A DNA stretch of 59,680 nucleotides. Source: an uncultured Bacteroidales bacterium. GTDB lineage: Bacteria; Bacteroidota; Bacteroidia; Bacteroidales; P3. The DNA lies in the NCBI GenBank assembly GCA_900318275.1, contig ONJY01000024.1, positions 1 through 59,680 of the forward strand. The letters are read 5' to 3'. Below are positions 15,205 to 31,320 of the stretch, piece by piece (position 1 is the stretch's first letter; each line of letters begins with the position of its first letter). The translations under genes and the position numbers were made by a program. Under the pieces are notes generated by a model. It saw only the letters and a program-made list of their open reading frames with translations, made no database searches and was not told the DNA's origin.

Positions 15205-15238
15205 TTGACAATTGATAATTGACAATTGATAATTGAAA
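15201..15238. repeat. Tandem AATTGA-type repeat
   Basis: Four copies of a word like TTGATAA or TTGACAA begin at the dnaB stop codon and run toward the next gene. It also creates an upstream in-frame TTG for the deoxyhypusine-synthase-like gene, which is not needed. Confidence 0.8.
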
Positions 15239-15256
15239 ACAAAAACAATAATAACA

Positions 15257-16294
15257 ATGGAAAAGAAAGACCTCCTGAAAGAAACCGTCAAGCACATTGA
15301 CATCAAGAAGTACGACAGCACCGAGCTTATCGACGCCATGCGCCACATGAGCTTCACCAGCCGCGACACCGCACGCGCCGCCGACATCCTCTGCCAGATG
15401 CTGGCCGAGAAGGACTGCACCAACATCCTCACCATCGCCGGCTCCACCAGCGCCGCAGGCTGCATGCAGGTGTATGTCGACATGGTGCGCAACAAGATGA
15501 TCGACGCTGTCGTCAGCACCGGCGCCTCCATCATCGACATGGACCTCTTCGAGGCACTCGGCTACAAGCACTATATCGGCACCAAGGAGAACGTCATCCC
15601 CGACACCAAGCTGCGCGAGCTCTACATCGACCGCATCTACGACACCTTCATCGACGAAGAGGAGCTGCAGGCTTGCGACCAGGCCACCTGCGACGTCGCC
15701 GACCTCCTCGAGCCGCGTCCCTACAGCAGCCGCGAATTCCTCTACAACGTGGGCAAATGGCTCGCCGAGGGTCACGGTGTGAAGAAGGACAGCCTCATCC
15801 AGACCTGCTACGAGTGCGGCGTGCCTATTTTCTGCCCCGCCTTCAGCGACAGCAGCGCCGGTTTCGGCATCGGCAAGCACCAGTGGATCCGCCGTCACGA
15901 AGGCAAGCCCTACGTCAGCATCGACAGCGTGGCCGACTTCCTCGAGCTCACCGAGATCAAGATGGCCTGCCCCGAGAGCGGCCTCTTCATGGTCGGCGGC
16001 GGCACCCCCAAGAACTTTGCACAGGACACCGTTGTCTGCGCCGAGATTCTTGGCAAGGAGGTTCCCATGCACAAGTATGCCATCCAGATCACCGTGGCCG
16101 ACGTCCGCGACGGCGCCTGCTCCTCCAGCACTCTCCTCGAGGCCGGCAGCTGGGGCAAGGTGAGCGAGGAGTTGCAGCAGATGGTCTATGCCGAAGGCAC
16201 CACCGTCATCCCCGCCATCGTCAGCTACGCCTACCACAACGGCGCCTGGCGCGACCGCGAATACAAAAACTGGCAGAAACTCTTCCAGAAATAG
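15257..16294 (+). CDS. Deoxyhypusine-synthase-family protein
   Basis: A 345-residue cytosolic NAD-dependent enzyme of the deoxyhypusine synthase fold. The glycine-rich NAD site is around GSTSAAGCMQVYVDMV (residues 62-77) and STGASIIDMDLFEALGY. CPAFSDSSAGFGIGKHQW matches the spermidine site. Lys301 in AGSWGKVSEE matches the lysine that carries the aminobutyl intermediate in true DHS. Bacteria lack the eIF5A substrate of eukaryotic DHS, so a polyamine role such as homospermidine synthesis is more likely; this is inference. ATG 15257 is chosen over an in-frame TTG in the repeat. The gene follows dnaB by 52 nt. Confidence 0.88.
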   Translation: MEKKDLLKETVKHIDIKKYDSTELIDAMRHMSFTSRDTARAADILCQMLAEKDCTNILTIAGSTSAAGCMQVYVDMVRNKMIDAVVSTGASIIDMDLFEALGYKHYIGTKENVIPDTKLRELYIDRIYDTFIDEEELQACDQATCDVADLLEPRPYSSREFLYNVGKWLAEGHGVKKDSLIQTCYECGVPIFCPAFSDSSAGFGIGKHQWIRRHEGKPYVSIDSVADFLELTEIKMACPESGLFMVGGGTPKNFAQDTVVCAEILGKEVPMHKYAIQITVADVRDGACSSSTLLEAGSWGKVSEELQQMVYAEGTTVIPAIVSYAYHNGAWRDREYKNWQKLFQK

Positions 16295-16302
16295 TTTATT
16301 AA

Positions 16303-16385
16303 AGGTTAGAGCGTAAAGGTTAGAGGGGCTGACGCACTTTATTGATGCGCCAGCCCTTTAACCTATAACCTTTAACCTATAACCA
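16303..16385. repeat. Inverted-repeat cassette, AGGTTA arms with GGCTGACGC core
   Basis: Tandem words like AAAGGTTAGAG on the left pair with TTTAACCTATAACC words on the right. The core stem GGGGCTGACGCA / TGCGCCAGCCC encloses a 9-nt loop at about 16338-16346. It starts 8 nt after the deoxyhypusine-synthase-like gene and probably terminates it. Confidence 0.8.
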
Positions 16386-16562
16386 TTATAAATTACAAGA
16401 AACAATGCTGACATATCCGACTTTTCTTGAAAATAAAAGAGCCCTCGCACAATATTCCAGTGAAGGCTACGTTACTTAAAGCAAAAAACAACATCCCATC
16501 TGCCTATCGAAGAAACAATACTTATTGCAAACTGTTTTATTAATTTAAAAAAGTGTTTTGTT

Positions 16563-17279
16563 ATGAAAGTATTGTTTCAGAAGATGAGCCTGAAAGGCTT
16601 TGTGTTGCTGGCATGTATGCTGACTGGTGGCGCGGTGAGCGCACAAGAAAACAAGGCAGATAAACCGAAATGGGATGTCTGGGTCGACCTGCACTTCGGC
16701 TCCAGCTTCCTCGACGGCAGCAAGGGATTTACCGACTACATGCAAAGCAACCTTTCCGCGCTCGATTACCGCAGCACCTACCTCGGTGCCTTACAGGGCG
16801 GCATCGGTGCCGGGATGGAGTATGGCAGGTTCACCGTGGGACTATATGTCGATAGGGCGGACGTCAGCAGCGGTGTCGCTGTGAAGAACCAACTTGTCAA
16901 AAAGGACGACATGAATTCTCACCTCGACTTCGGCTACCGCATCACCCTGGCCGAGCACCTCATCCTCGAACCTTCGGCGGGCTTCGGCGTGAGCACCAGC
17001 GACATCTACCTCGCCACCTCGCGGGGCGGCGCCGACTACGTCACCTCGTTCACCACGAGGAACTATATTGTGCCGTTGACGCTCAGCTTCACGGCCGTAG
17101 GCAAAGATGATGATGTCGGCATCTACTTGCAGTACATCATCAGCGCCGGCCAGATAGGCACAGCTCGTATCACCGGCCTCGAGACCGAGGTGGACGGCCT
17201 CCACTTCCATCCCGCCACCCTTACCTTCGGTATCAAATACCGCTTAGGGTTTAAACGGACAATCAAACCGACAAACTAG
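16563..17279 (+). CDS. Outer-membrane beta-barrel protein, island copy 1
   Basis: A 238-residue exported protein. A signal peptide ends near GGAVSAQ (residue about 28) and the rest is a small predicted eight- to ten-strand barrel with alternating aromatic strands. It is clearly paralogous to the 225-residue gene at 28690. Shared stretches include FLDGSKGFT, VKNQLVKK, LEPSAGFGV against LEPTAGFGV, TSRGG.DYV, NYIVPLT and LYLQYIIS. Such barrels may anchor or pair with secreted proteins, but no function is known. It is preceded by about 180 nt of AT-rich sequence with no clear promoter and followed by a strong terminator. Confidence 0.82.
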   Translation: MKVLFQKMSLKGFVLLACMLTGGAVSAQENKADKPKWDVWVDLHFGSSFLDGSKGFTDYMQSNLSALDYRSTYLGALQGGIGAGMEYGRFTVGLYVDRADVSSGVAVKNQLVKKDDMNSHLDFGYRITLAEHLILEPSAGFGVSTSDIYLATSRGGADYVTSFTTRNYIVPLTLSFTAVGKDDDVGIYLQYIISAGQIGTARITGLETEVDGLHFHPATLTFGIKYRLGFKRTIKPTN

Positions 17280-17312
17280 ATGCTTTAGTATTTGACAAAA
17301 AGCTTGTGAATA

Positions 17313-17349
17313 GAAGAATCCCTGCAGGTCATTCCTGCGGGGATTCTTC
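17313..17349 (+). terminator. Rho-independent terminator after barrel gene 1
   Basis: A 16-bp stem (17313-17328 with 17334-17349, one G-T pair) with the loop TCATT is followed by TTTCT. It lies 33 nt after the barrel gene stop. Confidence 0.85.
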
Positions 17350-17380
17350 TTTCTCCCTTCATCGATCCTTCTATAATCCT

Positions 17381-17404
17381 TGTCGGCCGAGCCGACGGCA
17401 CACC
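17381..17404. repeat. Short dispersed repeat GTGCCGTCGGCTCG, reverse copy
   Basis: The reverse complement matches 24393-24416 at 22 of 24 positions. The inner TCGGCCGAGCCGA is nearly palindromic. Here it is intergenic; the other copy is inside a coding gene. Confidence 0.65.
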
Positions 17405-17486
17405 ACGGCGATGTTTCGACATGGGATAATGCCATTGGAGTGTAAATAAAAACATAAATAATGTTAAAAAATGATACAAAAACAGC

Positions 17487-17512
17487 ACTTCCTCGTCATA
17501 TATATAGGAAGT
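17487..17512 (+). promoter_or_regulatory. Conserved leader hairpin before T9SS cargo gene 1
   Basis: The 6-bp stem ACTTCC/GGAAGT encloses a 14-nt loop TCGTCATATATATA. The same loop and a stem with a compensatory A-T to G-C change recur before the next cargo gene (19798-19822). The AT-rich ACATAAATAATG sequence just upstream is also shared. It lies 52 nt before the start codon. Confidence 0.6.
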
Positions 17513-17564
17513 CCCCAATAAGGCCCTCATGAAAACGGATAAATAATCATTTAACACCACAACA

Positions 17565-19634
17565 ATGACAAAGAAAGTCCTCTCTTTTGCGCTCCTCGCC
17601 CTGATGGCAATCACCGCCAACTCTCAACATTTCGACTGGGTGAAATCCTACTTCGGCCCCGATTACGAGGACGGGGCCGCTGCCAACGAGATATTCGGCT
17701 CGGCTATAGACAGCGAGGGCAACATCTATATTCTCGGCCAGTTCATAGGCAACGCGCGATGGGACGACGATACAAGCATACTGCCATTCTCAGCACACCG
17801 CAACCGTAGCGCCGTCGTCGCCAAGTTCTCTCCCGATGGCCAATTGGTGTGGCACAAGGAGTTCTATTCCAGCTATACCGACTTTGTGGTCTATACCATG
17901 CGGATGGTGGGCGACACCGCACTTATGCTGTTTGCCGAGTTTAGGTTCCCCTTCAATTGGGGAAGCAGCTGGCACGACAAGAACGAGGTATACTATATGG
18001 ACACCCTGTTGACCACCCCCGATAGGTTCCCGGAGTCGCCCGACAGCCTCAAGTCACCAGCCCTCTACTATGCCTTTATCACTATAGGGCTTGAAAGCGG
18101 AAATCTCATCGAAGAGCATTTCTGGATACCATCCTTCGTCAAAAACGATGGCTCGTTGTTGAGAGATGAATACTCCGGCTACTTGATTACAAATGTAGGT
18201 GAGAGGGTCTCCTTCAATGTCGACAGCGAAGGAAACATCATATTGGCACGCCAGACAAATGATTATTATGGAGTTATATGCGACACCTGTCCTGATGGGC
18301 TCCAGGTCTGGTCGCCCCGGGAGGGCAACATCAGCACAATGCGTCTGCTTGTAGACGGAGCCACAAAGCAGCTTGATGTCCCCTTGGAACCCTCCAGCAA
18401 GTGGAACTGGCAAATAATAAAACTGTCGCCCCATATGGACAGCGTGATTGCAAGCACCTATGTCTTCGACTCCACTTGGCGATATTCTTATAATGACAAT
18501 ATAAGTATGCATTTGAATTCTATCGATGTCGATGCCAACGACAATATTTATATGCTTATAGACCGTACACAAGATCCTCTCGATAGATGGCCGGTAAAGA
18601 ACTCCGACACACTGGCTATGGAGTGGTACTCGTGCATGATACGATATGACTCGGAACTGACGCCGACGGGGATTGTGCAGGTGACTGCAACTTATACTCC
18701 AGAAGGAAACTGTGCGGGATATGTAAGACTCCTTGGCACATATTATGACAGCGTAACCAACTCGCTATTTATAAACGGTGAGTCAGGTAAAGTCCCAGAC
18801 TACTACACCACGTTGAACTACAGAGGCAGCACATTGGACCTTAAGAACAACGCCTGCTGGCTGCGGCTTGACGCCGACGACCTGAGTCTTGTCTCCTACG
18901 GCAAAGCCCGCTCAACAGGCACAGAGCCTTGGGAAAGGACATTTCTGTACTCCGACAAATATATGTGGTCCCACAACGGCTCCTTCGCTGTGGGAGGCAA
19001 CCGTGTCTTCTGCCAGGTGAAATACCAATGCAACATACTCTTCCAAAACACTCAAATTAACAATCCATACGGGATGGGACTATTTGTTTGGGACTATGAT
19101 GGTCACGAACTCGAATACATCGACTACAACTCGCCCGGCAAAACCAACGAACAAGGCTATATATTCCTTAAGGACAGCTCGCTATGGCTTACCGGCACCC
19201 TTACCGCAAACGCCGCCTTCGGCAACCACAATGTCAACGCCGCATGGAACAGCCACGCCTACATCGCCCGCTACACCGACACCGCCTTCCTGACACCCTA
19301 TGTCTATGACTCCACAGGTCACGGTGGCGGCATCGGCATCACACTCGTTGAAGGTGGAAACGCCCTCGTCGCCTATCCCAACCCCTTCCGGCAGAGAGTA
19401 ACAATTCAAGTGGAAAGTGGTGAGTTGAAAGTTGAAAGAGGGGCCGCCACAGCTTGGCTGACCGATATGTCCGGCCGCAGCGAAGAAGTCCGCCTCACCG
19501 CCGACGGCCCCAACCGCTACTCTCTCGACCTCACCTCACGCCCACAAGCCACCTACCTCCTCACCCTCACCACCGCCGACGGCCGCCAACACACCGTCCG
19601 CCTGCTGAAGCAGACAGATGTGTTCGGGAACTGA
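17565..19634 (+). CDS. T9SS-sorted exported protein, beta-propeller-like, copy 1
   Basis: A 689-residue protein with signal peptide MTKKVLSFALLALMAITANS. The body has recurring strands of the type DSEGNIYILGQF, VDSEGNIILARQ and VDANDNIYMLI (SBBP-like blade motifs). The last about 75 residues, from VAYPNPFRQRVTI to YLLTLTTADGRQHTVRLLKQ, form a type-A T9SS sorting domain, so it should be exported and attached to or released from the cell surface. Residues about 614-625 (VESGELKVERG) inside that domain are encoded by a tandem repeat. It is paralogous to the next gene along its length. Bases 18100-19000 are more AT-rich than the flanks. Ligand or activity is unknown. Confidence 0.85.
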   Translation: MTKKVLSFALLALMAITANSQHFDWVKSYFGPDYEDGAAANEIFGSAIDSEGNIYILGQFIGNARWDDDTSILPFSAHRNRSAVVAKFSPDGQLVWHKEFYSSYTDFVVYTMRMVGDTALMLFAEFRFPFNWGSSWHDKNEVYYMDTLLTTPDRFPESPDSLKSPALYYAFITIGLESGNLIEEHFWIPSFVKNDGSLLRDEYSGYLITNVGERVSFNVDSEGNIILARQTNDYYGVICDTCPDGLQVWSPREGNISTMRLLVDGATKQLDVPLEPSSKWNWQIIKLSPHMDSVIASTYVFDSTWRYSYNDNISMHLNSIDVDANDNIYMLIDRTQDPLDRWPVKNSDTLAMEWYSCMIRYDSELTPTGIVQVTATYTPEGNCAGYVRLLGTYYDSVTNSLFINGESGKVPDYYTTLNYRGSTLDLKNNACWLRLDADDLSLVSYGKARSTGTEPWERTFLYSDKYMWSHNGSFAVGGNRVFCQVKYQCNILFQNTQINNPYGMGLFVWDYDGHELEYIDYNSPGKTNEQGYIFLKDSSLWLTGTLTANAAFGNHNVNAAWNSHAYIARYTDTAFLTPYVYDSTGHGGGIGITLVEGGNALVAYPNPFRQRVTIQVESGELKVERGAATAWLTDMSGRSEEVRLTADGPNRYSLDLTSRPQATYLLTLTTADGRQHTVRLLKQTDVFGN
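19408..19441. repeat. In-frame tandem GGAAAGTTG-type repeat in T9SS cargo gene 1
   Basis: Degenerate words like GTGGAAAGT and GTTGAAAGT encode VESGELKVERG within the sorting domain. The paralogue at 21940 has a shorter, unrelated stretch at this point, so this looks like an insertion. Confidence 0.7.
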
Positions 19635-19797
19635 ATATGAACCGGATGGTAACCAGTACCAAACCGAAACCGAACCGAAACTCTGACGGAGTCATCCGTT
19701 CTTGAGTACGGACTTACCTACTACCTGCATTGACGCCAAACACACTTTCAAAAGCCCAAAACATAAATAATGCAAAAAAAAATGATAAAAAAACGAC

Positions 19798-19822
19798 GCT
19801 TCCTCGTCATATATATAGAAGC
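19798..19822 (+). promoter_or_regulatory. Conserved leader hairpin before T9SS cargo gene 2
   Basis: Stem GCTTC/GAAGC surrounds the same TCGTCATATATATA loop as at 17487-17512 with one extra unpaired C. It lies 56 nt before the start codon, and the upstream ACATAAATAATG is conserved. Confidence 0.6.
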
Positions 19823-19878
19823 CCAAGAGAGGCTTGGTTAGGAAAACCGGTTTATAAAACCACAAAAATAACACAACT

Positions 19879-22161
19879 ATGGCAAGAAAGACCCTCATCT
19901 TTGCGTTCCTCGCGCTGCTGGCAATCGCCGCCCACGCCCAGCAGTTTGAATGGGCAGAGAGTTACTATGGCTATGGCGATGAATACGTAAACATTCCTCG
20001 AGGGCTGGTGGCCGACAGCGAGGGCAACACCTACCGCCTGATGCAGGTGAGCAGAGGTGGCACGCTGGACGGCGTCGATCCCTTCGAGGGCATCACCAAC
20101 TACAACTACAGCATGCTGCTGGTCAAGATGTCCCCCAACGGGCAGCACCTGTGGCACCGCATCATCAACCCTTGGGAGAGGGGTGTCGACACCATCGGTG
20201 TGACCGTCCACGACCTGCGCATGCTGGGCGACACGGCCCTGATGATGATGGTGGACATGCCGCTGCCTCTCACCATCGTCTCGTATGGTACACCGCAGGT
20301 GCAGTCGAAGCTCTACTACCTCGACACTCTGCTCACCACCAGCGAAACGTTGATGCCTACGGACAGTATCTATAATTGGAGGGTCACAGCCTTCATCACA
20401 ATGGGGCTTGACGGCACTTTGCTGGAACACCATTTCCTGCAGGTCACCTACCTCGACAGCCTGGGGCAGCCAGTAACACGTGGGCAAAAAGTGTATGGCA
20501 ACAACCTTACTGCCCAACACTTCGACGTTGACAGCCGCGGGAATATCTATATCGTCCGTCATACACAAGACGATGCATTTTCGGGACTTGACCCTATGTA
20601 CTTTTACGATGGGGCGCTGAGCGGCTACCGCTTTATGGTAGACGGCACGCAGTTTCTTACCCATATCCCGCCTTACCCGACGGGCTGGTGGAACCAGCAG
20701 GTGCTGAAGTTCTCGCCGCATTTCGACAGCCTGATTGACGCCACCTACATTGCCGGCGATGCGCCGTGGGTCGACCCCATCAACACCCCCTGGATGGACA
20801 TCAAGTCGTTCGACATCCACGAAGACGACCAGTTGTACTTCACCTTCAATATAAAAGTAGAACACGACAGCATACCCATTGCACGATCGAACGGGCTGGC
20901 TCTGCAGGTGGACACACTCTCGCTGGCTTGGGGTACCGACTGTATGCTCCGCCTTGACACCGGCCTGAATGCCAACCTGCTGATGCAGTTCAATTGTGTG
21001 CCTTACGATGGAGGCTATCCTTCGGTGGGACTCAGCGCCACCTGCGTCGACACCGCCACAGAATCGCTCTTCGTACTTGGCGTTGCGGGAACGGATGGAT
21101 TCATCGGCAACGACAATCCACACCAGATCGTCTACCGTGGCGACACGCTGGACAACCGTAATGATGCTTTTTGGCTCCGCGTGGGAATCGACGACGGACG
21201 CTACCTCTCCTATGGGCGTATACACTCGAGTTGGGGCGCCTCCAAAGGTGGCTTGAGCATCGCTGCGCGCAACAACCGGGTGTTCGCACAAGTAGCCTAC
21301 AGTGGCAGCGTCTTCTTTGCCGATACGCTCCTCACCACCCAAAGCGCCTTCGAGACCGGACTGGCTCTGGCCCAGTGGGACTACGACGGCAACGAGGTGA
21401 CCATATACCCCTTCCACTGCACCCATTCCAACAGCCAGGCCGGACACCTGCTGCTGACGGACACGGCGGTATTCGTCACCGGCAACAGCTTCAGCAGCCC
21501 CACCACCTTCGGCGACATATTCTGTGGCAATGGACAGTACATCGCCAAACTGGTCGACACCTCGATGCGCTCGCCCTACGTCTATCCCGACCTTCATGCC
21601 GACCAGACAATCATCTGGCCGGGTGGCAACACCCTGCGCATCTCTAATCCCGGCAGCAATCCGTATCTGCAGCTCAATGCCAGCGCCAGCAGCGGCATGC
21701 CGGTAGCCTACATCATCTCCGACCCCTCGATGGCCATGGTTATTTCAACAGGCGGCGGTGGCGGTTTTGAAATATTGGCATTGTGCTCGCAAGGAGTCTG
21801 CCAAGTAACTGCCAGCCAACCAGGCACCAGCTACTGGAACCCCGCTTCGCTCACCAAGACCCTCGTTATCGGCAACGTCGGCATCCACGAATTTTCAATT
21901 CTCAATTCTCAATTCTCAATTTATCCCAACCCTACCTATGGCAAAGTGACCATCTCCACTCATGAGAGCATTGTATCCGCCTTCCTCACCGACCTCTCCG
22001 GCCGCCGCGAAGAAGTCCGCCTCACCCCAACAGGCTTCGGACAATACACGTTGGATTTAACCCCACGCCCCCAAGCCACCTACCTCCTAACCCTCACCAC
22101 CGCATCAGGCAAGACCCACACCGTCCGCCTGCTGAAACAATCGGACATCTTCTCACGATAA
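19879..22161 (+). CDS. T9SS-sorted exported protein, beta-propeller-like, copy 2
   Basis: A 760-residue protein paralogous to the preceding one: signal peptide MARKTLIFAFLALLAIAAHA, blade motifs such as ADSEGNTYRLMQ and VDSRGNIYIVRH, and a type-A T9SS domain starting at IYPNPTYGKVTI. It has an extra Ig/MBG-like domain at about residues 575-665, with LNASASSGMPVAYIISDP and CQVTASQPGTSYWNPAS. The short linker between that domain and the sorting domain (FSILNSQFS) is encoded by a tandem repeat. It probably heads an operon: the next four genes follow at gaps of 27, 20, 20 and 18 nt. Surface or secreted location is inferred; activity is unknown. Confidence 0.85.
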   Translation: MARKTLIFAFLALLAIAAHAQQFEWAESYYGYGDEYVNIPRGLVADSEGNTYRLMQVSRGGTLDGVDPFEGITNYNYSMLLVKMSPNGQHLWHRIINPWERGVDTIGVTVHDLRMLGDTALMMMVDMPLPLTIVSYGTPQVQSKLYYLDTLLTTSETLMPTDSIYNWRVTAFITMGLDGTLLEHHFLQVTYLDSLGQPVTRGQKVYGNNLTAQHFDVDSRGNIYIVRHTQDDAFSGLDPMYFYDGALSGYRFMVDGTQFLTHIPPYPTGWWNQQVLKFSPHFDSLIDATYIAGDAPWVDPINTPWMDIKSFDIHEDDQLYFTFNIKVEHDSIPIARSNGLALQVDTLSLAWGTDCMLRLDTGLNANLLMQFNCVPYDGGYPSVGLSATCVDTATESLFVLGVAGTDGFIGNDNPHQIVYRGDTLDNRNDAFWLRVGIDDGRYLSYGRIHSSWGASKGGLSIAARNNRVFAQVAYSGSVFFADTLLTTQSAFETGLALAQWDYDGNEVTIYPFHCTHSNSQAGHLLLTDTAVFVTGNSFSSPTTFGDIFCGNGQYIAKLVDTSMRSPYVYPDLHADQTIIWPGGNTLRISNPGSNPYLQLNASASSGMPVAYIISDPSMAMVISTGGGGGFEILALCSQGVCQVTASQPGTSYWNPASLTKTLVIGNVGIHEFSILNSQFSIYPNPTYGKVTISTHESIVSAFLTDLSGRREEVRLTPTGFGQYTLDLTPRPQATYLLTLTTASGKTHTVRLLKQSDIFSR
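21890..21922. repeat. In-frame tandem CAATTCT-type repeat in T9SS cargo gene 2
   Basis: Four copies of a word like TCAATTC encode FSILNSQFSI between the Ig-like and T9SS domains. The same word family is intergenic at 29384 and 12831. Confidence 0.8.
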
Positions 22162-22188
22162 TTTTCAATCATCAAAAACACCTCCAAA

Positions 22189-22770
22189 ATGACACACCAC
22201 ATCATCAAACCCCTTGCCGTCCTCGCCATGGGAGCAGTGCTGCTGGCGGGCTGCGGGAAAGACAACAAGGACAACGGGAAGCCCGAGGCCACCCAAATCA
22301 AACAGACCGAGTGTGGACAGCACTTCGAGACACAAGCCAAAAACCTCGCAGAGGGCGAGCAGTACGTCGTGGAGTGGGTCGACGGCGCCGCAAGGGTGAT
22401 ACACGTCGGAATGGCGGTGACGTGCGACTATGAGAGCGTGTCGGTCGACGTGGCGGTCGACGGCTCGACGGTCACCGTCGATGAGTGCCCAGTCGGCGGC
22501 GGCTACGTGGACTGCCTCTGCATTATCGACAACATGTTCACCATCGCCAGCTTGCCCCACGGCACCTACACCTTCATCTTCAAGGAGTGCGGCTACGAGA
22601 ACCACGAGGCCGTTTTGCAATGCCGTAAATGCGTTTTGCAGTGGTGCGAGGCTATTTTGCAGCCGTGCAATGCCCAATGCAATGGTGCGAGACCGATTTA
22701 CACGACTGCAAGAGGGTTTTGCGATGGTGCGAGGCAAAATTGCACGGAAGAAACAACAAATCGAAGTTAA
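22189..22770 (+). CDS. Predicted lipoprotein with a repeat-encoded Cys-rich tail
   Basis: A 193-residue protein with a lipobox LLAGC at residues about 19-23, so it should be lipid-anchored in the envelope. The body, with YVVEWVDGAARVIHVG and CLCIIDNMFTIASLPHGTYT, looks like a small beta domain; I do not recognise it. From about residue 142 the tail is six degenerate heptapeptides (VLQCRKC, VLQWCEA, ILQPCNA, QCNGARP, IYTTARG, FCDGARQ) built from 21-nt units. The natural protein may have ended near KECGYE, the rest being added by the repeat. It is 27 nt behind the T9SS gene and 20 nt before a DUF6624 gene. Confidence 0.72.
   Translation: MTHHIIKPLAVLAMGAVLLAGCGKDNKDNGKPEATQIKQTECGQHFETQAKNLAEGEQYVVEWVDGAARVIHVGMAVTCDYESVSVDVAVDGSTVTVDECPVGGGYVDCLCIIDNMFTIASLPHGTYTFIFKECGYENHEAVLQCRKCVLQWCEAILQPCNAQCNGARPIYTTARGFCDGARQNCTEETTNRS
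22612..22737 (+). repeat. Six-unit 21-nt tandem repeat in the lipoprotein gene
   Basis: Units begin at 22612, 22633, 22654, 22675, 22696 and 22717. The best-kept words are TTTTGCA and TGGTGCGAG. Because 21 nt is seven codons, copy-number changes would keep the frame. Confidence 0.8.
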
Positions 22771-22790
22771 ACAATAAACACATTGAGACA

Positions 22791-24497
22791 ATGAAGAGAA
22801 TCCTGATGCTATGCGCGGCGATGTTTGCTCTTGTCGCCAATGCCCAGTCGGAACAATGGAAGGCTTATCTGGACATCTGCGGGCAGTTCCGTGCCGACAT
22901 GACGCCTTGCGAGAAGATGGAGTTCTATGCGCGAATGGATTCCCTGTTCGATGGATATATCCCGTTGCGCCGTGTGGAAATGAACTATATGGAGGCTGCC
23001 CTGCAGTGCGGCGACACGGCGACATTCAAGCGGCTGGCTTTCCGCGTGGTCAGGTGGAAGGGATGGAATCCGCTGGTGTTCTACTATGTAGACCAATACA
23101 AGTTTCTGAAGGACTGCGACTGGTGGCCGGAACTGGACTCCATCCAGCAGGCCGTCCACAGCAGGAAAGACTACAGCTATGCCGAAACCCTCCACCAGAT
23201 GCAACAGGAAGACCAGGCCGCGCGGCGTGCTTTCCACAACCGCTCGTTCACGCCTGCCGAGGAAGATTCGCTCGGTCGCAGGATGCGTGATGTGGACTCG
23301 GCCAATTTAGTGAAGCTGAAGTGGCTGATCGATACCCTGGGCTTCCCCTCATGGGACCGAGTCTGCTCCTACGGCTCTGCCGACGCCTGGCTCGTCGCGC
23401 AGCATATGCACCCGTGGTTTCAGTACGGCTACGTCAAGCAACTGCGTCAAGCGGTGGCGGACACTAATGCCGACCCGTCAAATCTGGCCTACCTCGAAGA
23501 CCGGCTGCGCACAGAGCGCGGGCTGCCACAGCTCTACGGCACGCAGTTCACCTCCACCAGCGAGAACAACCGCACCGCGTGGCAATGCCCCGTCGCCGAC
23601 ATCAAGAATGTCAACCTGCGTCGCGGACAAATGCTTATGCCGCCACTGGAGGACTATATCGAAGGCTATCTGAAATCCTCGAGCGAAGATGGAATGCTGG
23701 ACAGTGACAACCCACTGACAGAGATGGGGGACAACTATGTGCGATACTATTACCTCGGCGACCAGTTTTCGCTCCTGCCTATGGACATGCAGCAGGGGGT
23801 GACGGATGCAGTGGCTTACAAAACTGCAGGCGATTACTGCGCAGCAATTCCCATCTTCTGCTCACGGCTTTCGAACCACTACCCCTTTGTGCGTGACCTG
23901 AAGCGCTATCTGGAATGCCTTCTGCACAGCGAGTGCGTAGGGAACCAGTATTGCTACATCAGCCATTACGAGGTACTGGAGCGCATGGTACTCTGCGGCT
24001 ACGAGCCGGACGCTTGGCTCGATTCGCTGCCCGACACGCTCTCTGTGCCTCTGCGGGCCGATTACGCCAACCTGCGCGAGGAGTACCTGCGCTACCTCAA
24101 CCATGAGGATGATGCCGAGCTCACTGCCGCCCTCGCCAGTCGCGTCGACTTCGAGGCCCTGCTCCGAAGCGGCAAGAACTACCACCGCTACGAACTCGAC
24201 ACATGGAACCATGCCTATCCCTTGTTGCTGAAGATGACCGACGAGCTGACCAAAGGCGACTATGAAGAGTTCTTTGCCCTTCTTTGGCGCGAAGTAGAGC
24301 GCGGCAACCTCCACGCCGAGGATTACGCCTCGCTCTACGACCGCACCTACTATCGCCTCCACGGCAAAGACTGGTACGGCGCCCTTGCCGCTGGCGTGCC
24401 GTCGGCTCGACCGACAACGGACAAGCATATCCGTACCGCCAAACCGAAGTCTCTCAACGAGCGCCGCCGCGCAGCCTGTCTGCCGCCAGCAAAATAG
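22791..24497 (+). CDS. Exported DUF6624 protein, copy 1
   Basis: A 568-residue protein with signal peptide MKRILMLCAAMFALVANAQS. Residues about 125-290 match DUF6624: DSANLVKLKWLIDTLGFPSW, ADAWLVAQH, NLAYLEDRLRTERGLPQLYGTQ and then VNLRRGQMLMPPLEDY. The domain has no known activity. The remaining C-terminal half (helical, ending KSLNERRRAACLPPAK) is shared almost identically with the next gene. An in-frame insert encoding about GVPSARPTT (24393-24416) near the C-terminus is absent from that paralogue and matches an intergenic repeat at 17381. ATG 22791 is chosen for the signal peptide; upstream in-frame codons lie in the neighbouring repeat. A periplasmic or secreted location is inferred. Confidence 0.82.
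   Translation: MKRILMLCAAMFALVANAQSEQWKAYLDICGQFRADMTPCEKMEFYARMDSLFDGYIPLRRVEMNYMEAALQCGDTATFKRLAFRVVRWKGWNPLVFYYVDQYKFLKDCDWWPELDSIQQAVHSRKDYSYAETLHQMQQEDQAARRAFHNRSFTPAEEDSLGRRMRDVDSANLVKLKWLIDTLGFPSWDRVCSYGSADAWLVAQHMHPWFQYGYVKQLRQAVADTNADPSNLAYLEDRLRTERGLPQLYGTQFTSTSENNRTAWQCPVADIKNVNLRRGQMLMPPLEDYIEGYLKSSSEDGMLDSDNPLTEMGDNYVRYYYLGDQFSLLPMDMQQGVTDAVAYKTAGDYCAAIPIFCSRLSNHYPFVRDLKRYLECLLHSECVGNQYCYISHYEVLERMVLCGYEPDAWLDSLPDTLSVPLRADYANLREEYLRYLNHEDDAELTAALASRVDFEALLRSGKNYHRYELDTWNHAYPLLLKMTDELTKGDYEEFFALLWREVERGNLHAEDYASLYDRTYYRLHGKDWYGALAAGVPSARPTTDKHIRTAKPKSLNERRRAACLPPAK
24393..24416. repeat. Short dispersed repeat GTGCCGTCGGCTCG, in-frame copy
   Basis: This segment matches the reverse complement of 17381-17404 and is missing at the corresponding place in the paralogous gene (about 26169), which reads AASDKHIRT where this reads AAGVPSARPTTDKHIRT. 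Confidence 0.65.
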
Positions 24498-24517
24498 ATA
24501 CGAAAAGAAATAATTCC

Positions 24518-26257
24518 ATGAAGATTAGACATCTTATTAAAACCTCATTCAATATGAAAACAACCAAGAGAGCCATCCTATTAGCGGTGTGCATCGCGTT
24601 TTCGCTTGCCGCAAACGCCCAGTCGGAACAGTGGAAGGCTTATCTGGACATCTGCGGGCAATTCCGTGCCGACATGACGCCCTGTGAGAAGATGGAACTC
24701 TATGCGCGAATGGATTCACTGTTTGATGGGCATATGCCTGATTACAATAATCTCTATAACTATATGATAAGTTCGTTTCTGTGTGGTGACACCATGACCT
24801 TCAAAAAGCAGCTTGTTCGTGCAACAGATTGGAAATGTTGGAATTCAAAATTAATCGATACATGGGATGCTGTTGAGTTCTTGAAGAAAGAAAAAGACTG
24901 GAATCAATTGGATTCGCTTTCGAAAATCTATGGAACCAAGAAGATTTACCCCTATATGGATTCTTTGGAGGCCATGGTTGAACGAGACCAGGCTATTCGT
25001 TCGGAATTACACAATCCCAATCTTTCCATTGAACAAAAAGATTCTATTTTTACCCAATGGCAAATAATTGATTCTACTAATCTGACACTTCTAAAATCCC
25101 TTATTAAAAGATATGGCTTTCCTACATGGGAGCGTGTTGGCTATACCGGCTGTAGAAATGCATGGCTGATTGCCCAGCATGCAATACCTTATATTTATGA
25201 CTTTGAAAAAGAATACCGCAAGGCAGTTATGGATAACAATGCCGCAAAAAATTTGTTGGCATATCTTGAAGACCGCTCAAGGACAATGAGAGGTTTGCCA
25301 CAACTTTATGGAACACAACTGGCGACAAACCCTAAAGATTATCTGCCTATTTCAGATATTAAAAATGTTAACAGTAGAAGAGAAGAGATAGGATTGGAGC
25401 CATTAAATGACTATCTGAAACGTATGTCTATTGATATTAATGATTATTTTATTTTACAAGATACATCGGAACCTAACTATATTGATTTTTATTATAAAGG
25501 TAATAAGCTTGAGCCTTGGGGAGTAATTAAAGCTCAAGGCTATTTAGACGAGAACGAATTTGACAAAGCGAGTGTTCTCTATTGTCATGTATTTCATAAC
25601 ACCTATCCTTTCATTCGAGATTTAAAACGTTTTGTGTCAACCCTCATAATGAATGGGGGAAAAAGCGACCAATATCTTTTCATCAGTACCTATGAGGTGC
25701 TGGAGCGCATGGTGCTCTGCGGCTACAAGCCGGACGCATGGCTCGACTCGCTGCCCGACACGCTCTCTGTGCCCCTACTGGCCGATTACGCCAACCTGCG
25801 CGAGGAGTACCTGCGCTACCTCAACCACGAGGACGACGCCGAACTCACCGCCGCACTCGCCAGCCGTGCCGACTTCGAGGCTCTGCTCCGAAGCGGAAAG
25901 AACCGAAGGTCGGCGACCGACAGTGGAGCCAACAGCCAACTGGCGACCGACAGTGGAGCCAACTATCACCGCTACGAACTCGACGCATGGAATCACGCCT
26001 ATCCCATGTTGGAGAAGATGACCGACGAACTGACCAAAGGCGACTATGAAGAGTTCTTTGCCCTTCTTTGGCGCGAAGTGGATCGTGGCAACCTCCACGC
26101 CGAGGATTACGCCTCGCTCTACGACCGCACCTACTATCGCCTCTACGGCAAAGACTGGTACGGCACCCTTGCCGCGTCCGACAAGCATATCCGTACCGCC
26201 AAACCGAAGTCTCTCAACGAGCGCCGCCGCGCAGCCTGTCTGCCGCCAGCCAAATAG
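24518..26257 (+). CDS. Exported DUF6624 protein, copy 2, mosaic
   Basis: A 579-residue paralogue of the preceding gene. The signal peptide is MKTTKRAILLAVCIAFSLAANA from ATG 24554; ATG 24518 is used here because its upstream context (GAAAAGAAATAA) repeats before the next gene, but 24554 is equally possible. DUF6624 signatures are NLTLLKSLIKRYGFPTWERV, NAWLIAQH, NLLAYLEDRSRTMRGLPQLY and GLEPLNDYLKR. The gene is a patchwork: about 24615-24730 and 25690-26257 are nearly identical in DNA to copy 1, whereas 24735-25680 is AT-rich and clearly diverged. A 63-nt in-frame insert with a 22-nt direct repeat lies at about 25904-25966. Its function is as unknown as that of copy 1. Confidence 0.82.
   Translation: MKIRHLIKTSFNMKTTKRAILLAVCIAFSLAANAQSEQWKAYLDICGQFRADMTPCEKMELYARMDSLFDGHMPDYNNLYNYMISSFLCGDTMTFKKQLVRATDWKCWNSKLIDTWDAVEFLKKEKDWNQLDSLSKIYGTKKIYPYMDSLEAMVERDQAIRSELHNPNLSIEQKDSIFTQWQIIDSTNLTLLKSLIKRYGFPTWERVGYTGCRNAWLIAQHAIPYIYDFEKEYRKAVMDNNAAKNLLAYLEDRSRTMRGLPQLYGTQLATNPKDYLPISDIKNVNSRREEIGLEPLNDYLKRMSIDINDYFILQDTSEPNYIDFYYKGNKLEPWGVIKAQGYLDENEFDKASVLYCHVFHNTYPFIRDLKRFVSTLIMNGGKSDQYLFISTYEVLERMVLCGYKPDAWLDSLPDTLSVPLLADYANLREEYLRYLNHEDDAELTAALASRADFEALLRSGKNRRSATDSGANSQLATDSGANYHRYELDAWNHAYPMLEKMTDELTKGDYEEFFALLWREVDRGNLHAEDYASLYDRTYYRLYGKDWYGTLAASDKHIRTAKPKSLNERRRAACLPPAK
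25912..25963 (+). repeat. 22-nt direct repeat inside DUF6624 copy 2
   Basis: GGCGACCGACAGTGGAGCC and three more bases occur at 25912-25933 and 25942-25963. Together they encode the two ATDSGAN units of an in-frame insert not found in DUF6624 copy 1, which reads SGKNYHRYELD straight through. Confidence 0.85.
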
Positions 26258-26275
26258 ACGAAAAGAAATAACAAC

Positions 26276-28465
26276 ATGAAGAAAATCTTGATTATATGCT
26301 CGGTACACCTGCTTTTTGCAGTCACCGCCTCGGCACAGACCCCTACTTACAAAGAATTGTCGGCAACGGCCTACAACTTGATTAAAGAGCAGGACTATAT
26401 TGGGGCACACAAGGCATTCCATACGATGGACTCCCTGTATGGAATAAGTGATTTCGAAGCCCTCTACTATTACTACGCCTTGTCGCACGACTTTGTTCCG
26501 GACCGCGAGTTGGAAAAAGCCTTAATGTTCCGCTTGGCGCAAAACAAGTGCTGCGATATGCGCTACTTGGACGACTGGGCAAGAAGTCAGCAGGCCGACA
26601 CGCTCGATTACTGGAACGACATTGTTGCCATCGTTGCTCCCCGCGGCTATCAGGACACTGTCTATCAGAACCGCCTGCTGGCGATGAACAGAGCCAATAA
26701 TGCAGCATGGCAGATGCAGCACGGCAGCAACAACCAGGATTCGGTGCGGGATGCCATGCGTATGGTTAACTCTGCCAATCTGAGCGAGTTAAAGCAGCTG
26801 ATTGCCGAGCGCGGTTTCCCGACATACAGCAAGGTGGGCTACTATTGCGTCAAATATGCCTCAGCGATAGCTTTGTACCAGCCATCAGAGTTTCTCCATT
26901 GGTATCTGAAACAGGCCAAAGCCGCCGCCGACAGCAACGACTATGACCCTGAATGGCTCGGCCATCTAATCAAACGCGACAGACAGGTGAGCATCTACGA
27001 TACCGTGTTCTATACAGGCATCGAACCGCTGTTCCAAGCCGACCAAGAGGCGCGCCATCTGCTGAACAAGGGATTGGATGAGGACTCGGTGTTGCGCGTT
27101 ATACATGAGGTTGATTCGGTGAACCTAATTGCGCTGAAACAACTGATTGCCGATTGTGGATTCCCGACGCTGTCGCGGTCGGGCTACAAATGCTGCGACT
27201 ACGCCGCCCTGATAGCGCAGCACTCGCCGCCCGAGTACCTGCATTGGTTTCTGGAACAGGCGCAGGCTGCCGCCGACAGCGGCGACTTCATCCCATCGTG
27301 GATTGCCTATATGACCGACCGTGATCTTACCCATCAGGACAAACCTCAACTGTACGGAACCCAAGGGGTTCCCCTTGACGGTCTGACAGGAATGGCTCTT
27401 ATCGACGATGTCGAGCATCTGAACGAACGGCGGAGAAGTATGGATTTGGAACCCATTGAGGATTATCTTCCATACATGGATATGCCCGACTTCTATTTCC
27501 ACCCCTCGCTTGTCGACTACAGGCAATACAGCCTCAACCTCCGCATCGAGGGCGACACGCTGCGGGTGTCAGGCTTTTATCTCATCCCCTACGACACCAC
27601 CACCTATTCGGGACAACCTATCAAGGTCGATACCGCCTATTCCCTGCCACTTGCCGACTACCGCATGGCCGATGGTGCCATCGTGCTGCGCCGCGAGGGC
27701 GACTGGTACCCACACCGCAATGGCGAGCTGCTGACGGCACAGGTACACATCAAGGCGGACGACTATTACATCCTTGGCGGCACAGAATGGCTTCCCTCGT
27801 TCGACCTGCACCTCGTCCTCTTGCCGAAGGACAAATACGCTTGCAAAGTGGTTGAATCGCCCACGCGTCCCTTCCATTTCTACCGCCTTGCAAGTGATAC
27901 AACACAGTATCCCGATGCCTATTACCGCGAGTTCGTGGATTCCTACAATTTCTACTGCTCCTTCTTCGGCGATTCCTTGTCGTCAAAGCCGATGAACATC
28001 GTGGAGATTGGCGACCCGCAGTTTGTGATGTGCCAGTCGCTGCGCGATATGATTATCCTCGGGCATTATTTCTATGATGTCTATACGATGATACCCGACT
28101 TTTCGTGGATTCCTCACGAGGTGGCGCACCAATGGTGGGGCAACGGCATCTTCTTCGAGTACCGCAAACTACAGTTTCTCAAAAGCCGCGGACGAGGCTA
28201 CGAGGAGCAGCTGGAATACTACAAGGCGATGATGGAGCGTGCCGAGAAATCATTGCCGATCGCCGACATCCGCAGCGTTGAGTCGCAGGATGAGTCCATA
28301 GCCATCTATCACGCGGCACCCTACCGACTCTCCCTCATGGACATGGCGACCGTCAACACCGCTCTGCAGCATCTCTACAACAAACACAAATACACAATAG
28401 TCGGTCGGGATACCTTCCTGCAAGAATGTCAAAGCTTGCGCCTCTGGCTATTCTATAACTCTTAA
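26276..28465 (+). CDS. Exported tandem-DUF6624 / M1-peptidase-like fusion, zinc site incomplete
   Basis: A 729-residue protein: signal peptide MKKILIICSVHLLFAVTASA; a degenerate DUF6624 unit at about 140-245 (NSANLSELKQLIAERGFPTY); a better one at about 255-410 (DSVNLIALKQLIADCGFPTL, PQLYGTQ, LNERRRSMDLEPIEDYLPY); then an M1-aminopeptidase-like region. HEVAHQWWGNG at 614-624 is the zinc-binding HExxH with the usual WWGN. M1 enzymes need a glutamate 19 residues after the second histidine, in a WLxEG-type motif; here that place is Ser637 and the motif is missing (FFEYRKLQFLKSRGRGYEE). An in-frame deletion is inferred, so it is probably not an active peptidase. The end (LWLFYNS) runs into a tandem repeat and may be truncated. 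Confidence 0.8.
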   Translation: MKKILIICSVHLLFAVTASAQTPTYKELSATAYNLIKEQDYIGAHKAFHTMDSLYGISDFEALYYYYALSHDFVPDRELEKALMFRLAQNKCCDMRYLDDWARSQQADTLDYWNDIVAIVAPRGYQDTVYQNRLLAMNRANNAAWQMQHGSNNQDSVRDAMRMVNSANLSELKQLIAERGFPTYSKVGYYCVKYASAIALYQPSEFLHWYLKQAKAAADSNDYDPEWLGHLIKRDRQVSIYDTVFYTGIEPLFQADQEARHLLNKGLDEDSVLRVIHEVDSVNLIALKQLIADCGFPTLSRSGYKCCDYAALIAQHSPPEYLHWFLEQAQAAADSGDFIPSWIAYMTDRDLTHQDKPQLYGTQGVPLDGLTGMALIDDVEHLNERRRSMDLEPIEDYLPYMDMPDFYFHPSLVDYRQYSLNLRIEGDTLRVSGFYLIPYDTTTYSGQPIKVDTAYSLPLADYRMADGAIVLRREGDWYPHRNGELLTAQVHIKADDYYILGGTEWLPSFDLHLVLLPKDKYACKVVESPTRPFHFYRLASDTTQYPDAYYREFVDSYNFYCSFFGDSLSSKPMNIVEIGDPQFVMCQSLRDMIILGHYFYDVYTMIPDFSWIPHEVAHQWWGNGIFFEYRKLQFLKSRGRGYEEQLEYYKAMMERAEKSLPIADIRSVESQDESIAIYHAAPYRLSLMDMATVNTALQHLYNKHKYTIVGRDTFLQECQSLRLWLFYNS

Positions 28466-28500
28466 CTCATAACTCATAACTCATAACTCTTAACTCACAA
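28455..28500. repeat. Tandem AACTCAT-type repeat after the fusion gene
   Basis: Six copies of a 7-nt word (AACTCTT or AACTCAT) follow and include the TAA stop of the 729-residue gene, so its last residues are repeat-encoded. Confidence 0.8.
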
Positions 28501-28511
28501 CAAACAATATC

Positions 28512-28619
28512 ATGCGCAAAGCAATTGTACGGAAACAATCCGCCTTGCGGGCAATAAAAAACGTATCGGAACGTTTATATGGGCGTAAAACAAATTGTAT
28601 AACAAAACCGATACCATGA
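28512..28619 (+). CDS. Possible 35-residue basic peptide
   Basis: A short frame from ATG 28512 to TGA 28617 encodes a basic peptide starting MRKAIVRKQSALRAIKNVSE. There is no signal peptide or known motif and no clear promoter. It lies between the tandem repeat and barrel gene 2. It may be a leader peptide or chance; base composition is less GC-rich than neighbouring genes, which argues for caution. Confidence 0.25.
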   Translation: MRKAIVRKQSALRAIKNVSERLYGRKTNCITKPIP

Positions 28620-28689
28620 TGAGACATTGAATACCATTCATGCTAAACGCATAAATCAGTAATGTTCAATAAAAAAAAACTTTAACATC

Positions 28690-29367
28690 ATGGTAAAACA
28701 CATCAACATCAAACAGACGGCTCTGCTGCTGGCTTGCTTGCTGGCAGTCGGCACAGTTTCATCTCAGGAAAACGAGGCCGGAAAAAGGAAGGTTAATCCC
28801 TGGGGCGAATTCAACCTCGGTTTTAACTTCCTCGACGGCAGCAAAGGCTTCACCAACCACATGCAGACCTATCACCCCGCGCTCGACTACCGTGGCGTCT
28901 ACAGCGTGGCGGCCCAAGTCGGCATCGGCATCGGCGTGGAATACTGCCGCTTCACCCTCGCCCTGCACCTCGACGGTACCGCAGACAACATCAACTCCGT
29001 CAAGAACCAGCTTGTCAAAAAGCGGGACAACCTTTATCATATCGACCTCGGCTACCGTTTCAACCTTGGCAGAAACTTCACCCTCGAACCCACAGCGGGC
29101 TTCGGCGTCGGCCTCAGCGAAATATTCCTCTCAACTTCGCGAGGTGGTACCGACTACGTCAACTCGTTCTCCTCAGCCAATTACATCGTACCTCTGACAG
29201 TCAACTTCCTGTATGCTAAACGTAGGCTTGATGGCGGACTCTATCTCCAGTACATCATCAGCGTCGGGCATATAGGCAAAGCCCACATCACAGGACTCGC
29301 CACCGAGGTGGACGACCTAAACTTCCAACCGTCCACGCTCACCCTCGGCTGGAAGTACCGGTTCTGA
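28690..29367 (+). CDS. Outer-membrane beta-barrel protein, island copy 2
   Basis: A 225-residue exported protein with a signal peptide ending near GTVSSQ and a small predicted barrel ending in the aromatic strand LGWKYRF. It is a paralogue of the gene at 16563 in the same orientation, about 12 kb away, so the two bracket the exported-protein genes. The family is not one I can name beyond outer membrane beta-barrel. The gap upstream (28466-28689) holds a tandem repeat, a possible small ORF and an AT-rich stretch just before the start. Its closeness to copy 1 suggests segmental duplication. Confidence 0.82.
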   Translation: MVKHINIKQTALLLACLLAVGTVSSQENEAGKRKVNPWGEFNLGFNFLDGSKGFTNHMQTYHPALDYRGVYSVAAQVGIGIGVEYCRFTLALHLDGTADNINSVKNQLVKKRDNLYHIDLGYRFNLGRNFTLEPTAGFGVGLSEIFLSTSRGGTDYVNSFSSANYIVPLTVNFLYAKRRLDGGLYLQYIISVGHIGKAHITGLATEVDDLNFQPSTLTLGWKYRF

Positions 29368-29383
29368 CCGATAAAAACTATTA

Positions 29384-29420
29384 GCAATTTTCAATTCTCA
29401 ATTGTCAATTCTCAATTATA
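29384..29420. repeat. Tandem CAATTCT-type repeat
   Basis: Four copies of a word like TCAATTC or TCAATTG lie 16 nt downstream of barrel gene 2, the same family as the in-frame repeat at 21890. Confidence 0.8.
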
Positions 29421-29461
29421 CCCACCGCCTCGCTCTACGACTCTATGACTCTTACACAATA

Positions 29462-29495
29462 AAAGTTTGCATCCTGCGTTAAGGATGTAAACTTT
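29462..29495 (+). terminator. 14-bp hairpin ending 6 nt before the thioesterase start
   Basis: 29462-29475 pairs with 29482-29495 (one G-T pair) around the loop GCGTTA. It could end transcription from barrel gene 2, though no long U-run follows, or it could hide the ribosome-binding region of the thioesterase. The sequence alone does not decide. Confidence 0.55.
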
Positions 29496-29501
29496 CTTTG
29501 T

Positions 29502-29885
29502 ATGATAGAGACCGGAATCAAAGGACATCATGAACAGATCGTAACCCCCGGGATGAGCGCCGCTCGCGTGGGCAGCGGCCTCGTCGACGTCTTCGCCACA
29601 CCCATGCTCGTGGCACTCGTCGAACAGACATGCTACGAGAGCGTACTGCCGCACCTCGACGAAGGACAGGGCACCGTCGGCACACTGGTGAATGTGAGCC
29701 ATCTCTCGGCCACGCCCATAGGCCGTCGCGTATGGTGCGACAGCGAGCTGACAGAAGTGGACCGCCGCCGACTCGTATTCCATGTGAAGGCCTTCGACGA
29801 CTGCGGCCTCATCGGCGAGGGAACCCACGAGCGCTTCATCATCGACACCGCCAAATTCATGGACAAACTGAAAGCAAAAAGCTGA
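29502..29885 (+). CDS. Hotdog-fold thioesterase (FlK-like)
   Basis: A 127-residue cytosolic protein. GSGLVDVFATPMLVALVEQTCYES and TVGTLVNVSHLSATPIG (read as GSGLVDVFATP, VEQTC and NVSHLSATP) match the hotdog acyl-CoA thioesterase group related to fluoroacetyl-CoA thioesterase. That group keeps Thr, Glu and His at the active site; here the pattern is ATP...VEQT...SH. The physiological acyl-CoA is unknown. The start at 29502 gives the family's usual N-terminus and lies only 6 nt after a strong hairpin. It stands alone, between the exported-protein island and the cysteine desulfidase operon. Confidence 0.85.
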   Translation: MIETGIKGHHEQIVTPGMSAARVGSGLVDVFATPMLVALVEQTCYESVLPHLDEGQGTVGTLVNVSHLSATPIGRRVWCDSELTEVDRRRLVFHVKAFDDCGLIGEGTHERFIIDTAKFMDKLKAKS

Positions 29886-29964
29886 CGAAACGCTACGCGG
29901 CGCATTCCCTCCGCGCACCCACGCACACGCATCACCCACGCACGGCCGCAGGCGCTCTTTTTAT

Positions 29965-29995
29965 TTTGCCGTATAAAATAATTGTCGTATCTTTG
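29965..29995 (+). promoter_or_regulatory. Bacteroidota consensus promoter for the cysteine desulfidase operon
   Basis: TTTG at 29965-29968 and TATCTTTG at 29988-29995 are separated by exactly 19 nt. The ATG at 30034 follows about 38 nt later. Confidence 0.9.
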
Positions 29996-30033
29996 CATTT
30001 TACAATATTTCTAACTCTAGATTGTATCTACCT

Positions 30034-31311: not shown

Positions 31312-31320
31312 AGGGTTGCA

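Follow-up and report, generated by a model that had tools for sequence, protein, structure and literature searches.

Exported DUF6624 proteins and an M1-like peptidase domain at a variable chromosomal site of Bacteroidales

Do eight neighbouring genes for exported proteins, bracketed by two related outer-membrane barrels, form one system? The question is raised by an island at positions 16563-29367 of contig ONJY01000024.1 (assembly GCA_900318275.1) from an uncultured Bacteroidales bacterium. The window that we analysed is this complete contig of 59,680 nt; the draft genome comprises 56 contigs, is 88.6% complete and is probably, as are its named relatives, a metagenome-assembled genome (MAG). 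A first-pass annotation had described the two barrels as enclosing two cargo proteins of the type IX secretion system (T9SS), a lipoprotein, two DUF6624 proteins and a fusion of DUF6624 with an M1-like peptidase, and had proposed an uncharacterised surface or secreted system. When the coordinates of the open reading frames (ORFs) were re-examined, all eight genes were found in the places and order described, on the + strand. Sec-type signals were recognised by eye at all eight N-termini, as had been claimed for every gene except a doubtful 35-codon ORF. What is left of the proposed system is a recurrent, swappable secreted module, not a fixed set of eight genes.

The DUF6624 core and its M1-like domain

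The centre of the island consists of three consecutive genes on the + strand whose products exceed the gathering cut-off of the DUF6624 family (PF20329, 27 bits). DUFe (22791-24497; 568 amino acids; 49.4 bits) and its paralogue DUFf (24554-26257, with a possible start at 24519; 67.2 bits) have signal-like N-termini. DUFg (26276-28465; 51.1 bits) combines two DUF6624 domains, both detected by a local profile, with an M1-like domain that bears a deletion. A second DUF6624-like domain at the C-termini of DUFe and DUFf reached just 0.1 and 4.9 bits and is not claimed.

DUF6624 was detected in 29 of the 120 genomes of our genus set and in 33 of the 150 genomes of the family set, and we fetched 32 stretches, 31 named loci and others. 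The named relatives are Bacteroidales or Bacteroidetes MAGs, with goat reticulum, yak rumen and reticulum, and sheep rumen as stated sources; "RUG" in their names presumably stands for rumen. The genus of the window is probably one of rumen Bacteroidales. Leaving out named duplicates (L144-L174) and copies with fewer than 150 aligned residues, we counted 22 DUFe loci. Of these, 18 offer 1.5 kb of room or more, and 15 of the 18 have an M1-like domain no further than 5.5 kb downstream of DUFe, one of these partners (L040) being a 33-residue remnant. Among the same 18 loci, a double DUF6624 lies downstream of DUFe in nine and an S41 peptidase gene near it in seven, of which L048 and L050 hold just its first 31 residues. 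T9SS cargo was found within 5 kb upstream of DUFe in 9 of 21 loci; 7 of 22 have a barrel no more than 8 kb away, and 6 of 22 have the small F4 lipoprotein. The gene order thus recurs in relatives for the core but not for the bracket around it. Because cargo, barrel and lipoprotein each occur at fewer than half of the DUFe loci, we rejected a fixed eight-gene system; the core, since it recurs, is more than a chance grouping. Judged from these loci, the recurrent core is DUFe followed by a predicted M1-like zinc-peptidase domain.

The M1-like domain stays constant as the C-terminal part, and the front that precedes it varies. Its front is a double DUF6624 in the window and in many relatives. Elsewhere it is fused to DUFe (L046 and L163, one contig), to a whole S41 peptidase in one protein (L162, L164, L165), to no more than the opening ~31 residues of the S41 gene (L048; L050/L161, one contig) or to a short or unrecognised front (L167, L168). 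S41 also occurs as a standalone gene between DUFe and DUFg (L047, L057), and the DUFe/M1-like pairing turns up elsewhere on the chromosome and in a further genus of this family (L142, L143). The comparison of loci shows the core to be a modular set of DUF6624 and peptidase-like domains, reshuffled between species, with cargo, barrels and small lipoproteins as companions that can be exchanged for one another. In our limited literature searches, fusions of DUF6624 to M1-like or S41 domains did not turn up.

For DUFg itself, the fusion proposed by the first-pass annotation holds in its DUF6624 part. Its M1 part escaped the Pfam scan of the window copy (no PF01433 match at E ≤ 1) but was recognised in relatives, with an E-value of 2.5e-5 and 24.4 bits in L045. 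The zinc motif HEXXH is kept in the window as HEVAH and is present in 29 of 29 contigs of relatives where it is legible, with N covering it in one more. However, 12 residues are missing from the window protein, among them the predicted third zinc ligand, a Glu separated from HEXXH by 17 residues. This Glu is kept in 30 of 30 distinct contigs of relatives that span the site, a count that leaves out the remnants L040 and L176, which do not span it, and that was made without requiring the HEXXH pattern (an earlier count requiring it gave 17 of 17). In the DNA, the lesion is a clean in-frame gap of 36 nt at about 28160-28170, for which an assembly error may be an alternative source. With the predicted ligand deleted, an active metallopeptidase in the window is not supported, and the peptidase half of DUFg in this strain is, by its sequence, probably dead or altered.

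Intact relatives resemble the M1 zinc peptidases (PF01433) in the HEXXH motif, the downstream Glu and the E-value mentioned. They differ in that nine of their proteins score 20.5-26.3 bits, below the curated cut-off of 27.7 bits, and in the spacing of 17 residues, where M1 peptidases have 18 between HEXXH and the Glu. The M1 exopeptidase motif is GXMEN; nothing like it was seen by eye ~28 residues before HEXXH in the alignment. The window copy differs further through the lost ligand.

Among the explanations considered, the one that we favour, tentatively, is that the island is an allele of a hypervariable site carrying a DUF6624 and peptidase-like module that would act on peptides outside the cytoplasm. 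Its best-supported parts are the modularity, the pairing of DUFe with an M1-like domain and the changing content of the site. Several points speak against this explanation. Besides the low PF01433 scores and the GXMEN-like motif that was not seen by eye, three of the 18 loci with room (L036, L037, L058) have no M1-like partner within 5.5 kb, the partner in L036 being located 6 kb on. Moreover, shared descent of a hot spot could yield the pairing without joint function.

A variable site and exchange between species

The neighbours of the island had been taken for housekeeping genes, and family profiles indeed matched DnaB, DHS, an FlK-type thioesterase, SDH_alpha and DXP synthase among them. 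On the left side lie dnaB (13675-15204, + strand; Pfam DnaB_C, 342 bits) and a relative of deoxyhypusine synthase (DHS; 15233-16294, + strand; DS, 278.9 bits; NCBIfam PRK02492, 557.7 bits), for which the best NCBIfam label is 1,9-bis(guanidino)-5-aza-nonane synthase. On the right side follow, also on the + strand, the FlK-type thioesterase (29502-29885; FlK, 130.7 bits) and the SDH_alpha protein (SDA; 30022-31311; 177.8 bits). Genes like those of the island lie between DHS and FlK-SDA, whole or cut by a contig end, in L042, L045, L052, L053, L058 and L059.

SDA is present in 100 of 119 genomes, and the stretch upstream of it was fetched from 20 relatives, some with DUF6624 elsewhere. Four of these stretches contain other mixes of exported genes (L175; L176 with an M1-like remnant; L177, its left side cut; L185), nine are empty or nearly so, and seven are uninformative owing to contig ends or rearrangement (L178, L180-L184, L193). 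Where the site is empty, DHS and SDA are separated by ~70 nt and ~20 nt (L179, L194), or dnaB adjoins SDA without DHS (seven stretches, L186-L192). Genomes G024, G079, G085 and G089 have a near-empty site and carry their DUF6624 genes elsewhere. On this comparison, the island is one allele of a hypervariable site between dnaB-DHS and FlK-SDA.

We then compared synonymous divergence (dS) gene by gene, leaving out rows with less than 70% identity or fewer than 60 columns. Between the window and G068 (L045/L158), dS was 0.03 for barrel 2, 0.04 and 0.06 for the cargo genes, 0.11 for DUFf, 0.20 for DUFg and 0.58 for DUFe, against 1.50, 1.00, 1.02 and 0.86 for the four genes to the right. Values for G090 were 0.05-0.35 inside the island and 0.85-0.95 to the right, with 0.52 for dnaB and 0.20 for DHS on the left; those for G050, G091 and G115 were 0.25-0.54 inside and at least 0.94 or saturated on the right. 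In these five relatives, each of which has DUF6624 genes at this site, dS inside the island is below that of the right flank. Island genes have probably been exchanged between species, and these values point to homologous recombination. As dS differs between neighbouring genes, the exchange looks mosaic. The left flank fits less well, its contrast being small: the dS of DHS, 0.20-0.25 across five pairs, does not exceed that of DUFe, and dnaB has 0.34-0.60 in three relatives, while SDA is at about 1 or saturated. The contrast depends on the right flank. DHS may itself belong to the stretch that is exchanged, or it may be codon-constrained.

Movement by an integrase or insertion sequence (IS) was also considered. 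In line with the first-pass annotation, a Pfam scan of ten ORFs gave neither, although IS ends were not searched for specifically, and homologous exchange fits the divergence better.

A site of this kind might carry no functional unit at all and be a recombination hot spot that collects whatever exported genes it tolerates. The looseness of cargo, barrel and lipoprotein in the counts given above, the mosaic dS, and the junction DNA and repeats that loci have in common (see below) agree with this. We nevertheless regard it as unlikely, given that DUFe and the M1-like domain occur together in 15 of 18 loci (one with a remnant), elsewhere on the chromosome and in a further genus too, and that the single contig behind L046 and L163 carries them fused.

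Companion genes and a dispersed repeat

A spacing of 18-27 nt had been reported for the genes from 19879 to 28465. This holds if DUFf starts at 24519 (gaps of 27, 20, 21 and 18 nt), but the third gap becomes 56 nt with a start at 24554. A scan for consensus promoters and terminators yielded 14 terminator-like sites where 12.2 were expected and was uninformative on co-transcription.

The two T9SS cargo genes (17565-19634, and 19879-22161, which opens the tightly spaced run; both + strand) were upheld by the sorting-tail model TIGR04183, with 25.8 and 29.7 bits at a cut-off of 23. They resemble other type IX cargo of Bacteroidota in these tails and in the presence of SprA in the genome (537.5 bits; the sole T9SS component sought), and no unusual feature sets them apart in the island. 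Since the genome contains SprA and 42 TIGR04183 matches, we consider them ordinary. Both are preceded by a shared stretch of 42 nt (90% identical; within 17449-17507 and 19758-19818) with CTTCCTCGTCATATATATAG. Similar stretches lie before cargo genes in L042, L045, L052, L054 and L176, and before DUFe in L059.

The barrels at 16563-17279 and 28690-29367 (both + strand) are 57% identical to each other and are the only matches in the genome. The second passes the PF13505 cut-off of 28.7 bits with 30.0 bits; the first had no Pfam match above cut-off and is grouped by its identity to the second. The DNA at 28466-28689, between DUFg and barrel 2, is conserved upstream of the barrel, with blastn matches in L045, L052, L063, L131, L176 and L177, and, to judge from these, this junction DNA travels together with the downstream barrel. 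The 35-codon ORF (28512-28619, + strand), already doubted by the first-pass annotation, sits within this conserved DNA and is therefore probably not a gene. Between barrel 1 and cargo 1 (~17380-17417) we noticed a palindrome-like stretch of 26-39 nt. Several relatives have a match to it, in inverted orientation, within the coding 3′ end of DUFe, and the stretch may represent another short dispersed repeat.

The lipoprotein (22189-22770, + strand) was confirmed with its lipobox LAGC, but its final ~50 residues are a run-on. Its relatives end with KECGYENHRQEYTI*, at 145 amino acids in L122 and L131 and at 167 in L104, whereas the frame in the window continues to 193 amino acids through a dispersed repeat at 22605-22753 (+ strand; nhmmer with our own model, E 2e-40). 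This element consists of ~21-nt units with conserved hairpins, in the pattern TTTTGCA..TGGTGCGAGGC and variants. A covariance model matched the window copy, itself part of the model alignment, with an E-value of 1.4e-25. The same model found the repeat in 67 of 119 genus genomes (E ≤ 0.01), with up to 12 matches each, overlapping and antisense ones counted.

The alignment comprises 25 copies; partial or interrupted ones (L064, L067, L104, L111, L118, L128, L133, the second place in L123 and others) were left out. Its helices are paired in 96.8% of cells, with two-sided changes in 9 of 45 pairs against a shuffle mean of 4.2. Sliding by one column also gave nine pairs, yet with 14 changed cells instead of 33 and with 33% paired. 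Many G-U pairs on the + strand favour an RNA over a DNA hairpin. Support for the structure is weakened because this very alignment served to derive it and because the copies share ancestry. When folded singly, the L105 copy beats its shuffles (z -4.0), which the window copy does not clearly do (z -1.6, with 15 of 200 shuffles equally good). Rfam gave no match in the window at 14000-32000 even at E ≤ 1, and the sole matches at gathering level in the loci of seven relatives were two tRNAs.

In 23 of 36 places, the repeat ends 36-78 nt before genes for exported or membrane proteins of various families, many of which share similar signal peptides (in the window, the distance was measured to 22791). 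The remaining 13 places lie outside this pattern or at contig ends, or only doubtful ORFs follow. A terminator-like hairpin was seen by eye after the repeat in L106, L109 and L115. A pure 5′ leader was thus rejected, and because of these exceptions and hairpins we describe the repeat as an intergenic element. It may provide recombination homology between modules. ERIC and BIME are dispersed intergenic palindromic repeats, and the element in the window is likewise short, self-complementary and present in several copies per genome; unlike them, it is made of ~21-nt units and often lies 36-78 nt before exported or membrane proteins. In L114, L120, L122, L130, L131 and others, the same kind of upstream gene (for a DUF6261-type protein or the lipoprotein) and the repeat are followed by unrelated exported genes in different genomes, which looks as though a single expression spot had taken up varying cargo.

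Maturase neighbours and the possible role of DUF6624

In agreement with the first-pass annotation, the literature we found assigns no activity to DUF6624. A printed lead comes from PMC13097080, the one paper of the searched library that names the domain, where DUF6624 is reported as highly frequent in graspetide groups 18, 20, 23 and 42 and termed a possible new class of biosynthetic enzyme. PMC8939145 describes a "cluster 23" family, probably the same as DUF6624 as we infer, in almost all Bacteroidetes branch-5 loci (ATP-grasp plus SPASM). Many of its members have a signal peptide and lipobox, His and Arg are conserved, and zincin peptidases occur in another branch, all of whose loci have cluster 23 (PMC8939145). 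The terms "PF20329" and "grasp-with-spasm" matched no paper of that library, and "graspetide" and "ATP-grasp" are absent from the main text of PMC10352776.

Three loci connect DUF6624 with such maturases. In L037 (genome G009), a DUFe orthologue with 81% identity ends 18 nt before a TIGR04192 ATP-grasp maturase (298 bits, cut-off 230), followed by a TIGR04193 SPASM maturase (260 bits, cut-off 175), a TolC-type protein and a C39-peptidase ABC transporter. L137 comes from a different genus of the same family; here 11 nt separate a DUF6624 protein from TIGR04192 (237.8 bits), and TIGR04193 (295.7 bits) lies close by, as do two S41-like genes. At L257, which belongs to a set of 34 loci from across the phylum, DUF6624 stands beside SPASM and ATP-grasp homologues recognised by local profiles. 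The DUF6624 proteins of all three loci have signal-like N-termini.

This connection has its limits, which count against the explanation favoured above. The examined stretches of 21 of the 22 DUFe loci contain no ATP-grasp or SPASM maturase, and TIGR04192 was found neither in the window genome, with its completeness of 88.6%, nor by tblastn in the window. Local profiles detected no maturase, S41 or M1-like gene at 33 of the 34 phylum loci, so the link between DUF6624 and maturases is recurrent but not general. Several DUF6624 proteins at phylum loci are short, without a signal by eye and cytosolic-looking. Structure prediction gave little further guidance: from 56 matches to the domain, 23 were kept after removal of near-identical and short ones and 20 aligned (L163, L169 and one L148 row left out). 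An Asp-Arg and a Tyr are almost invariant in this domain, and most copies have a Gln-His. The resulting model is all-helical (pLDDT 81, pTM 0.74) and has no clear match in the PDB; 14-3-3 and TPR-like helical folds were the candidates considered.

Compared with the accessory DUF6624 proteins of graspetide clusters (probably "cluster 23" of PMC8939145), the island proteins share the domain and the signal-like N-terminus, and one DUFe orthologue (L037) directly precedes such a cluster. They differ in that the island region lacks an ATP-grasp, SPASM or transporter gene and has three consecutive DUF6624 genes, one of them fused to an M1-like domain. The island might be the decaying remnant of a graspetide cluster that lost its maturases, in keeping with L037 and with the shortened or damaged copies at some loci, DUFg of the window included. 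We hold this to be very improbable: TIGR04192 exceeds its cut-off in 1 of 119 genus genomes, beside DUFe (five more fall below it), against 29 of 120 with DUF6624, and DUFe has a dN/dS of 0.13-0.17. The DUF6624 genes together range from 0.07 to 0.18 in comparisons of at least 400 residues, and an 88-residue DUFg remnant in G043 has 0.25.

The same ratios, which indicate purifying selection on the DUF6624 genes as a group, bear on ordinary nutritional proteolysis, in which secreted peptidases and their helpers would digest rumen protein and DUF6624 would be an adaptor unrelated to modified peptides. S41 and M1-like partners, signal-like N-termini and the origin of several relatives from rumen or reticulum are what one would expect from it. 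However, the peptidase half is damaged in the window while the DUF6624 genes stay under selection, and DUF6624 stands beside peptide maturases in three lineages. We consider this reading rather unlikely.

We return to the module acting on peptides. From its neighbours, the likeliest role of DUF6624 would be in peptide handling outside the cytoplasm. The signal-like N-termini, the swaps and fusions with peptidase-like domains and the three signal-bearing cases linked to maturases make an action outside the cytoplasm, after peptide synthesis, likely. DUF6624 proteins and their M1-like or S41 partners would cooperate there, with DUF6624 binding or presenting a peptide and the peptidase domain cutting it. 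As the peptidase part of DUFg probably no longer works, or works differently, DUFe and DUFf would carry the remaining function in the window strain.

A further idea, which we regard as quite improbable, is that of an orphan peptide-defence locus, in which species making no graspetides themselves would keep such exported DUF6624-peptidase proteins, and trade them, in order to capture and cut modified peptides that rumen neighbours release. If this were true, DUF6624 would be an exported immunity or resistance factor of graspetide clusters, not a biosynthetic enzyme. The island thus raises the question of whether DUF6624 proteins bind, cut or neutralise modified peptides.

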